Assembly (NCBI GenBank): GCA_947630325.1
Contig: CANRHB010000005.1
Coordinates: 52,261-116,260, forward strand
From: an uncultured Clostridia bacterium
Lineage (GTDB): Bacteria > Bacillota > Clostridia > Christensenellales > Borkfalkiaceae
DNA length: 64,000 nt
Direction of reading: 5' to 3'
The notes beneath the pieces were generated by a model. It was not told the origin of the DNA. It was given only the letters and a program-made list of their open reading frames with translations, and made no database searches. Shown piece by piece: positions 11,092 through 61,154 of this stretch (positions are counted from its first letter, which is position 1; every line of letters starts with the position of its first letter). Both the position numbers and the translations under genes were made by a program.

Positions 11092-11119
11092 TTGACAAAT
11101 TCCGAATACGTGTTATAAT
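11092..11119 (+). promoter_or_regulatory. Strong sigma-A promoter of the orphan RNA unit
   Basis: TTGACA at 11092-11097 and TATAAT at 11114-11119 are both consensus matches, with a 16-bp spacer. Transcription would start near 11126. No ordinary coding gene lies downstream before the terminator at 11506. Confidence 0.85.
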
Positions 11120-11309
11120 GTAACCAGAAAAGGAAAATAACAACCAAAAAATGTTAGATTCCAACAAGGAGACCACTCCAATGGACAGGAAAGCCTAAAC
11201 AGTCGGAGTACACCTTACGAGAGAAAAGGACGGAAAAGTTCAAGATCGCAGGGTGACCGGTGAGGAGGTCAGGTCGCCACCACAACATCATAACGGGAGG
11301 TACAACGTT

Positions 11310-11342
11310 ATGAAAAATCCCATTTACTTGAAGATCAGGTAG
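11310..11342 (+). CDS. Micro-ORF MKNPIYLKIR inside the orphan RNA
   Basis: The frame is ten codons plus TAG. GGGAGG lies 8 nt before the ATG. Its TAG stop overlaps the next ribosome-binding site (TAGGAGGAGG), so termination here would place a ribosome at the following micro-ORF. Whether it is translated is unknown; the reading frame and ribosome-binding site are seen directly. Confidence 0.4.
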   Translation: MKNPIYLKIR

Positions 11343-11357
11343 GAGGAGGACACACCA

Positions 11358-11390
11358 ATGTACTATCAACTCATGGGGGCAGGAAAGTAA
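11358..11390 (+). CDS. Micro-ORF MYYQLMGAGK inside the orphan RNA
   Basis: The frame is ten codons plus TAA, preceded by GGAGGAGG and an 8-nt spacer, which is close to an ideal ribosome-binding site. It is apparently coupled to the micro-ORF ending at 11342. No homology is known to me; it may instead be a conserved structural part of the RNA. Confidence 0.4.
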   Translation: MYYQLMGAGK

Positions 11391-11505
11391 ACCCGACGAA
11401 CCGAATCATGCGGAGGATGTAGGTGCCGCAACGGGAATGTGTCCCGAAAAAGGTCGAGTTTGCCCCGAAAGAAACGGCTGCCCGACACAACTGAATTGAC
11501 GAATG

Positions 11506-11533
11506 CCCTCTGTACGCAGTACGGAGGGTTTTT
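11506..11533 (+). terminator. Intrinsic terminator of the orphan RNA
   Basis: A 10-bp stem (CCCTCTGTAC pairing with GTACGGAGGG) has a 3-nt loop and is followed by TTTTT. Confidence 0.85.
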
Positions 11534-11636: not shown

Positions 11637-11843
11637 TTATTTATCAGAGATCCCAAGCAGATAATCTGATGAAATTTCAAAGTATTTTGCGATCTTTACC
11701 AGCGTTTTTAAGTCGGGCTGATGCGCGCCCTGCTCATAGCCGGCATAACAAGTGACCGAGATCCCAAGTTCGGCCGCTATTTCCGCTTGTGTACGGTGTT
11801 CTTTTTTGCGTAATTCCCGTAATCTTTGTGCGAAGATTTCCAT
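11637..11843 (-). CDS. Small XRE-family transcriptional regulator
   Basis: This 68-residue protein is essentially one lambda-repressor-type helix-turn-helix: QRLRELRKKEHRTQAEIA, then ELGISVTCYAGYEQG and the tail YFEISSDYLLGI typical of SinR/Xre-like proteins. It would bind DNA as a dimer. A GTG at 11849 is possible, but ATG 11843 is preferred because the minus-strand TATACT (11850-11855) puts the predicted +1 on that ATG, giving a leaderless transcript; no Shine-Dalgarno is present. Twin palindromes lie just upstream, so autoregulation is likely. No partner gene follows on either side. Confidence 0.85.
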   Translation of the reverse strand: MEIFAQRLRELRKKEHRTQAEIAAELGISVTCYAGYEQGAHQPDLKTLVKIAKYFEISSDYLLGISDK

Positions 11844-11860
11844 ACGCACAGTATAACAAA

Positions 11861-11905
11861 ACTACGAGAAATTCGTTGACAAACTACGAGAAAATCGTAT
11901 ATAAT
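11861..11905 (+). promoter_or_regulatory. Divergent promoter with tandem XRE operators
   Basis: Two copies of the half-palindrome TACGAGAAA(A/T)TCGT lie at about 11862-11875 and 11885-11899; the second is an exact TACGA-N5-TCGTA palindrome. They flank and overlap a plus-strand promoter, TTGACA 11876-11881 and TATAAT 11900-11905, with an 18-bp spacer. The arrangement is that of an XRE regulator repressing a divergent gene, but no convincing gene lies downstream on the plus strand. Confidence 0.65.
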
Positions 11906-60977: not shown

Positions 60978-60996
60978 GTCACTGTAAACATTCTAT

Positions 60997-61104
60997 GCCG
61001 CAGACAACGGGTGCGTTTTCGCTCAATATCCCGTCGAGGTAAGGAAAGTTTTTCAAATGCGAAAAGCTGCTCCGTATCCGTCTGTGGTACGGAGCATTTG
61101 TTTT
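60997..61104 (+). promoter_or_regulatory. L10 leader (autoregulatory r-protein leader) with terminator
   Basis: It contains the conserved L10-leader phrases GCCGCAGACAACGGGTGCG and ATCCCGTCGAGG. It ends in an intrinsic terminator (GCTCCGTA/TACGGAGC stem at 61068-61095, then TTTGTTTT). In Firmicutes the L10(L12)4 complex binds this leader and lowers rplJL expression. Confidence 0.85.
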
Positions 61105-61154
61105 CCCGCAAGGGGAAACGCAAAATCGGGCTTTTAGCCTAATGGAGGATTTCA

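Follow-up and report, generated by a model that had tools for sequence, protein, structure and literature searches.

A conserved structured RNA with a row of Shine–Dalgarno-led micro-ORFs in uncultured Clostridia, possibly acting in trans through translation

The DNA analysed here (a stretch of 64,000 nucleotides, referred to as the window) contains, at positions 11092–11533, a transcription unit belonging to a conserved RNA family that lies outside all the Rfam 15 families searched. Comparison of the homologous sequences supports a promoter and a terminator of its own, conservation of the unit, upkeep of the reading frame of the second of its tiny open reading frames (ORF2), a nearly fixed spacing between the stop of ORF2 and the start of ORF3, and several covarying helices. 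From these features we infer that the RNA is transcribed, translated in cells and able to switch between states, and that it has a partner and an effect. We assign a probability of roughly one half to the reading in which the RNA belongs to a new family of structured RNAs that are transcribed on their own, bear a row of Shine–Dalgarno (SD)-led micro-ORFs and would act in trans by letting translation control the fold of the 3′ part. Structured bacterial RNAs as a broad kind are already known; we count the architecture as new because a search of an open-access library listed no RNA resembling this array of SD-led micro-ORFs. An earlier note on this DNA had proposed an orphan structured RNA with micro-ORFs and had named the raiA motif as the first identity to test; the orphan structured RNA is retained here, with its micro-ORFs proving conserved, and raiA is abandoned.

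The transcription unit, its spread and its surroundings

The unit occupies the plus strand as a single promoter-to-terminator module, with a predicted transcript of about 408 nt (11126–11533, +) whose start is placed from the −10 box and whose extent agrees with the fold and the homologues. Its sigma-A-type promoter (11092–11119, +) consists of a −35 box TTGACA (11092–11097), a 16-nt spacer and a −10 box TATAAT (11114–11119) with TG ahead of it, i.e. an extended −10, and matches the consensus at 12 of 12 positions. The same full score is reached by 85 of 99 homologues and 11/12 by another 13, the spacer being 16 nt in all of these, and the TG is present in 97 of the 99; the sole promoter scoring 9/12 is that of locus L153, the contig of which begins 181 nt upstream of the core. 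An intrinsic terminator with a T tail closes the unit (11505–11533, +; stem 11505–11529, T tail to 11533), and a terminator-like stem with a T-run lies 3′ of the conserved 3′ motif described below in 88 of the 96 homologues in which that motif was placed. The consensus promoter and clean terminator described in the earlier note are thus confirmed, as is the absence of an ordinary gene between them: of the three tested frames of 42–80 aa that overlap the unit in full or in part, two being antisense, none has a match in Pfam. Antisense stop-free stretches in the homologues have a median length of 95 aa, which is equalled by 31% of dinucleotide shuffles, and the reverse register that is open in the window is open in just 50 of the 99 homologues. 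An ordinary or antisense gene was therefore rejected, there being no Pfam match and no reverse stop-free stretches beyond those of the shuffles. By blastn the source genome carries one copy; the core model gave two additional weak matches in it, which appear unrelated when read. No DNA relatives were matched in collections of plasmid and phage records.

The Rfam search that the earlier note had suggested yielded no family at 11092–11533 at the gathering thresholds of Rfam 15, the only match in the window being a distant ribosomal protein L10 leader (RF00557, 60.5 bits, 60980–61110, +), itself ordinary. With E values up to 10, the segment 11080–11560 gave only two matches, both far below threshold and on the opposite strand. 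Ten further loci at E ≤ 0.5, of which eight hold homologues, yielded only an adjoining 5S rRNA, and no family reached its gathering threshold in 20 more homologue loci, 18 of which come from other genera. The raiA model (RF03072) did not match the unit even at E up to 10. It matched 0 of 21 genomes of the host genus, in a search whose control genomes were likewise without a match; across the order it matched 52 of 151 genomes, none of the 52 belonging to the host family, of which nine members were listed without a match. We consequently rejected identity with raiA, the model being negative at the unit and in the host family and positive elsewhere in the order. The raiA motif is common in sister families, and many other listed families also go without it. 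A substitute for tmRNA, another structured RNA that is about as long and contains a short coding frame, was also rejected: the tmRNA model had no match at the unit and found tmRNA elsewhere in 25 of 26 genomes (in 23 above the cut-off), including an ordinary match at a separate locus of the source genome (G000:C34:7976-8354).

Relatives of the unit, the collection of which had likewise been proposed, were gathered by blastn and then by two models. The blastn search matched 23 of 61 genomes, the source genome counted, some of them through the promoter alone (L013, L016, L021, L029 and L030). A model of the core from hairpin 2 to ORF3 (R1) matched 96 of 103 genomes of the host genus at E ≤ 0.1, and 58 of the 60 good ones; this is the opposite of the absence of homologues with conserved stems or frames that the earlier note had named as fatal to its proposal. 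Among 297 genomes of the order, R1 matched 15 at E ≤ 0.01, of which nine belong to the host genus and four to other members of the family, and two were judged chance matches. At E ≤ 0.01 the second, sequence-only model (R2) matched 189 of 301 genomes of the taxonomic family, 13 of the 18 genera being represented according to the tool; these counts contain chance matches such as the ordinary-looking gene start in G064 (L196). At E < 1e-5 there were 117 R2 matches, 50 in the host genus and 67 outside it, spread over six genera (g1, g26, g28, g29, g128 and g134). Beyond the family, three genomes were matched at E ≤ 0.001 among 391 genomes of the class, a set that includes six or more family members. 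The records that have titles are metagenome-assembled genomes of uncultured Clostridia or Firmicutes, and the isolate name contains ‘Lapin’ in 21 of 26, from which we would guess a rabbit-gut origin.

Most comparisons below use a set of 99 homologues; the host genus contributes 94 of the 98 genomes in which they lie. The set was drawn from 105 loci by dropping L151 (partial), L157 (partial, later recognised as a true array), L155, L158, L159 and L160, the last four on their core sequence, with L155 and L160 being second weak matches in two genomes. Reading also led to the exclusion of the weak matches L071–L074; L194, L195 and L198 were excluded by score alone, and L197 and L199 were set aside uninspected.

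In the window the RNA has the gene for SpoIIE (PF07228, PF19732) on one side and, on the other, a gerA-type operon (GerA, Spore_permease, GerAC); a small HTH gene adjoins it. The adjacency to spoIIE pointed out in the earlier note is real but loose: in 61 of 95 RNA-bearing genomes of the host genus the gene is found no more than 3 kb from the core, downstream on the same strand in 43 and divergent in 18, the window itself showing the divergent arrangement. In the other 34 genomes spoIIE is farther away on the same contig (seven cases, 3.6–33 kb), on another contig (24) or without a match (three), and at 24 loci from other genera, with flanks of up to about 2.5 kb, similarity to GerAC was seen at nine and to SpoIIE at one. 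As the orientation to spoIIE flips, we regard the RNA as an independent unit rather than just a leader of spoIIE, which would lie upstream of the gene and be co-oriented with it; a role in sporulation would be a guess from position. A second perfect promoter, TTGACA-18-TATAAT (11876–11905, +), is surrounded by a direct repeat, ACTACGAGAAAWTCGT (region 11861–11905, +), and points away from the small HTH gene (11637–11849, −); no ordinary gene was seen directly behind it.

Micro-ORFs and signs of their translation

Three SD-led micro-ORFs of 5, 10 and 10 codons had been described in the earlier note, and all three were located. The first (ORF1, MDRKA*, 11181–11198, +) sits behind AAGGAG..CUCCA. 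If a first frame is defined by an AUG located 50–80 nt past the −10 box that opens at most 11 aa behind a loose SD, 79 of the 99 homologues have one, which in 48 of the 79 is exactly M-x-x-stop, and 20 lack it. The second (ORF2, MKNPIYLKIR*, 11310–11342, +) encodes a cationic peptide and stands out by frame upkeep, substitution pattern and charge. Its TAG stop codon (11340–11342) runs into the SD of the third frame (SD3, AGGAGGAGG, 11341–11349, +), so that the overlap claimed earlier is borne out, and ORF3 (MYYQLMGAGK*, 11358–11390, +) follows with its second codon being UAC in 92 of 93 sequences. In 73 of 99 homologues 15 nt separate the stop of ORF2 from the start of ORF3, and the length of ORF2 stays between 8 and 14 residues in all but two of the 93 non-fused cases.

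From sequence comparison, these conserved micro-ORFs are very probably translated, and one argument comes from length changes between the start codons of ORF2 and ORF3 (AUG2 and AUG3), where 19 of 26 events, inferred on a tree made from the RNA itself, are multiples of three (binomial 4e-5) and seven break the frame. The corresponding proportion in the leader is 25 of 76 (Fisher 5e-4 against the AUG2–AUG3 interval), or 18 of 52 when only leader changes of up to 12 nt are considered (Fisher 2e-3), and in the gap between SD2 and AUG2 it is merely 5 of 22. In L105, an insertion and a deletion within ORF3 cancel each other on reading. The stop codons of ORF2 interchange (TAG 41, TAA 41, TGA 11; n = 93). 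For the same 93 of the 99 sequences, i.e. omitting six with fused ORFs, the pN/pS ratio of ORF2 is 0.57 (23 independent pairs), a value as low occurring in one of 300 column shuffles and the shifted frames giving 0.73 and 0.94; for ORF3 it is 0.78 (36 pairs), matched or undercut by 28 of 300 shuffles and thus not significant. These ratios speak for peptide-level constraint on ORF2. ORF3 seems to be maintained at the RNA level, since its second codon is nearly always UAC and its later codons form a strand of the long-range helix described below.

Of 67 distinct ORF2 peptides, 55 have a predicted net charge of at least +2, as do 18 of the 20 that other genera contribute (73 of 87 together); the means are +2.6 and +3.0, respectively, compared with +0.7 for nucleotide-shuffled ORF2. 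Part of this charge can be ascribed to the purine-rich composition of the RNA, because the +1 frame is basic too (mean +1.6, with 42 of 75 reaching at least +2); in the +2 frame the mean is −1.1. The peptides themselves drift almost fully across genera, as illustrated by MKNPIYLKIR, MYRSDLRKLTK and MIKLYARTKKGKGR.

The number of SD-led units varies. A set of 136 RNAs, which leaves out L217 and L235 (no recognised promoter) and the duplicate L223, averages 2.36 SD-led micro-ORFs, whereas dinucleotide shuffles average 0.31 and the reverse strands 0.02. The count takes SD-led frames of 2–22 codons, admits GTG starts and is strict to the point of undercounting (L157 scores one, against seven by eye). 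At least two micro-ORFs are found in 116 of the 136 RNAs and in 63 of 1360 shuffles, and a single one in 20 of the 136. There are usually two or three per RNA, up to seven by eye, the window RNA having three. L157 carries, by eye, five extra units (MGRKTA, MGHEL, MGHDF, MGQILT and MGR) ahead of an ORF2-like MAKKFFPKIL and an ORF3 in which ACG replaces AUG. In one subclade, six sequences have three ORF1-like units and an in-frame fusion of ORF2 and ORF3, with AUG changed to ACG, and the RNAs of genus g28 are longer, with repeated ORF2/ORF3-like pairs (partly by eye). What multiplies thus looks like the docking unit and not one particular peptide. Tandem units with similar 14-codon frames (MKAVTSRRGETRAG and MMQKTPRRGETRAG), each followed by a CCCGAS..STCGGG hairpin, were seen in L219/L223 of g28.

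RNA fold and the 3′ motif

The predicted fold of the window RNA has a free energy of −117.7 kcal/mol (z −3.34), none of 100 shuffles being equally stable with the terminator included; together with several covarying helices this upholds the earlier proposal of a structured RNA. Helices were tested by comparing the best pairing inside each RNA with that obtained when partners were swapped among RNAs, a design chosen because the MAFFT alignment of the 3′ domain failed, by eye, to align helix Pa (see below); swapped partners control for lineage composition in part only. In the 5′ half, hairpin P1 of the minimum free energy fold (GGAA..UAACA / UGUUA..UUCC, 11132–11162, +) gave z 3.1 (0/300), a middle hairpin (GGUGACC / GGUCGCC, 11252–11278, +) z 5.6 (0/300) and hairpin 2 (CAUAACG / CGUUAUG, 11289–11312, +) z 4.7 (0/300). 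A small hairpin, GGAC-GGAAAA-GUUC (11228–11241, +), was recognised by eye in the window and in homologues. Hairpin 2 presents SD2, GGAGGU, in its loop and holds the ORF2 start codon within its 3′ arm; its stem is missing or altered in one subclade (by eye). The GGAG/CTCC hairpin that the earlier note had placed over the first SD can be drawn but does not covary (own 7.23, swapped 7.59, z −1.1), and we do not retain it.

The most telling pairing is a long-range helix between GGGCAG in the second half of ORF3 (11377–11382, +) and CUGCCC (11478–11483, +), just before the conserved 3′ motif ACAACUGAAU (11487–11496, +), which is exact in 67 of 99 homologues and could be placed in a relaxed form in 96. 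Own partners score 15.76 against 13.71 for swapped ones (z 6.3, 0/200), five alternative partner segments giving z −3.9 to 1.2. In 38 sequences from other genera, four of which (L067–L070) are also among the 99, the helix reached z 8.2 (0/500), with L157 and near-duplicates left out, and with the mis-anchored L212 and the probably mis-anchored L214 and L222 staying in the count. Dissimilar sequences pair at this position, such as AAGGATCG/CGATCCTT, AGAATACA/TGTATTCT and GGGTGTA/TACACCC, and the distance between the ORF3 stop and the motif ranges from 78 to 577 nt in the well-placed rows of a separate comparison, the count of which retained four rows with a probably misplaced motif (L070, L129, L131 and L144).

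A further helix, Pa, joins the sequence around the ORF3 stop (11387–11397, +) to 11453–11463 (+) with one mismatch in the window (by eye); two tests gave z 6.6 and z 8.0, and five alternative segments z −1.9 to 1.2. The controls pairing ORF3 with ORF2 (z −3.9) and the segment after ORF3 with that at the transcription start (z −1.9) are negative, which indicates that effects of composition or lineage are present and that they act in the opposite direction. Two hairpins of the 3′ domain, A (GCGG / CCGC, 11410–11429, +) and B (CGGGA / UCCCG, 11432–11446, +), were drawn by eye.

No trans partner was found when the genome was searched for the complement of the 3′ motif: the exact complement of ACAACUGAAU occurs at one other site, where it is the motif itself that follows an HTH-like gene in sense orientation. 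The sequence CCGACAACTGAAT, which also occurs at the 3′ end of the RNA, is located 3′ of that gene at about 1498–1510 of L161.

Possible modes of action and related systems

An initiating ribosome has its leading edge at about +20 from the AUG. The 5′ strand of the long-range helix starts at +20 from AUG3, so that initiation at ORF3 could coexist with the helix, while elongation would have to open it. The following scheme may be proposed. Ribosomes would dock at SD2 within the hairpin 2 loop and read the cationic ORF2, then stop on SD3 and re-initiate at ORF3; the ribosome initiating at AUG3 would abut the long-range helix and, on elongating, melt it. The RNA would thereby exist in two states, one loaded with ribosomes and with an open 3′ domain, the other free and with the 3′ domain closed, and the 3′ domain, together with ACAACUGAAU, might pass on a signal in trans. 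In a more far-reaching version, which we consider less probable than not, the docking units of a dedicated trans-acting RNA vary in number, and ribosome occupancy, read by the helix between ORF3 and the 3′ end, reports translation capacity, in a family without any raiA match among the genomes searched. The constraint on the ORF2 peptide and its positive charge exceed what a pure ribosome-docking model needs. Other points that weigh against the scheme are the 20 of 99 homologues lacking ORF1, the missing or altered hairpin 2 of one subclade, the non-significant constraint on ORF3, the seven frame-breaking length changes and the 20 of 136 RNAs with a single scored micro-ORF.

The most serious rival is a dual-function RNA or micropeptide mRNA whose product is the cationic ORF2 peptide, perhaps with that of ORF3, and whose structure merely controls synthesis or stability. 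The low pN/pS of ORF2 (0.57, as low in 1/300 shuffles), the mean charge of +2.6 and +3.0 against +0.7 after shuffling, and the upkeep of its frame all agree with it, but the +1 frame is fairly basic as well, so that part of the charge stems from RNA composition, the peptide sequence drifts nearly completely across genera, the constraint on ORF3 is not significant and the extra units of L157 encode dissimilar peptides. We thus consider this rival unlikely; in our judgement, of the two roles suggested in the earlier note, a regulatory RNA that loads ribosomes is better supported than a dual-function RNA, both being viable. A simpler possibility is passive titration or parking, in which strong SDs only soak up 30S subunits. 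The strong promoter, the strong tandem SDs with very short frames and the multiplication of the units would fit, but such a sink has no need for a conserved long-range helix, helix Pa or 3′ motif, and we find it improbable.

Two other readings seem to us very improbable. Were the RNA a leader or attenuator of spoIIE, the 43 of 95 RNA-bearing host-genus genomes that have a co-oriented spoIIE no more than 3 kb downstream would be explained, but the gene is divergent in 18 of the 95, and in the window too, lies 3.6–33 kb off on the same contig in seven and is represented at only one of the 24 loci from other genera (flanks up to about 2.5 kb), and a terminator-like stem comes after the motif in 88 of 96 homologues. 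An untranslated structured RNA with GGA motifs binding a protein, in the manner of a CsrB-like sponge or scaffold, would leave the frames incidental; the predicted fold does place several GGA motifs in loops or in single-stranded stretches, yet the triplet-sized length changes and low pN/pS of ORF2, and the occurrence of start codons in register with SDs far beyond that in shuffles, argue against it. Relative to these rivals, translation-dependent action in trans remains the reading that we prefer.

Among known systems, the nearest in kind is the raiA motif/ModT RNA (RF03072), described in the cited paper as a structured, trans-acting RNA of Clostridia that affects sporulation in Clostridioides difficile (PMC11706538). 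Both are structured RNAs of Clostridia, but no model match is shared; in the main text of that paper the term ‘ORF’ is absent and ‘Shine-Dalgarno’ and ‘ribosome’ occur once each. Bacillus subtilis SR1, according to the account cited, is both a small RNA with a regulatory role and the message for a short protein (PMC8501984). Our RNA resembles such dual-function sRNAs in having a promoter and terminator of its own, by sequence evidence, and a short ORF that, by comparative evidence, is very probably translated. Set against SR1 as described there, it has several tandem frames, from a few to about 14 codons long, one of them interlocked with a long-range helix, and no base-pairing target was found for it in a search of the genome for exact complements to its 3′ motif. 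In structured uORF motifs, the fthC uORF candidate among them, a conserved SD-like region and an AUG between stems are reportedly combined with an in-frame stop that is often borne by a stem (PMC11109978), and the present RNA similarly has an SD, an AUG and a stop in a stem. However, these motifs, as portrayed in the source, and the leader peptides of attenuators precede the gene they are thought to control, whereas here the transcript contains no main gene and the RNA is found in either orientation to spoIIE. Minigenes, i.e. SD-bearing ORFs of two to a few codons, can affect translation, the example in the cited source being a cis element of a toxin–antitoxin mRNA (PMC8708949). ORF1, often M-x-x-stop behind an SD, is reminiscent of them; the minigene of that example acts in cis within an mRNA, in contrast to the present case, where minigenes are arranged in tandem within a structured RNA dedicated to them.

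The unit thus combines, in one transcript and without a main gene, a covarying fold and tiny, very probably translated frames, which are usually separate. The frames are far shorter than usual gene-length cut-offs, and the RNA is absent from Rfam 15. If the translation-dependent reading is true, the RNA would be a sensor or controller of ribosome availability, and the presence of micro-ORFs of such size hidden in other large RNAs deemed ‘non-coding’ becomes a testable matter.

Two further elements may be mentioned separately. A different orphan-like transcript with a very similar promoter is found at L026 and L027, with no evident gene in the part read and no Rfam match. L160 (G000:C13:97-192, −) and L155 (G125:C3:42731-42826, −) represent a near-identical element of ~100 nt with small SD-led frames, which in G000 has a terminator-like stem and is perhaps a mobile or shared small RNA.
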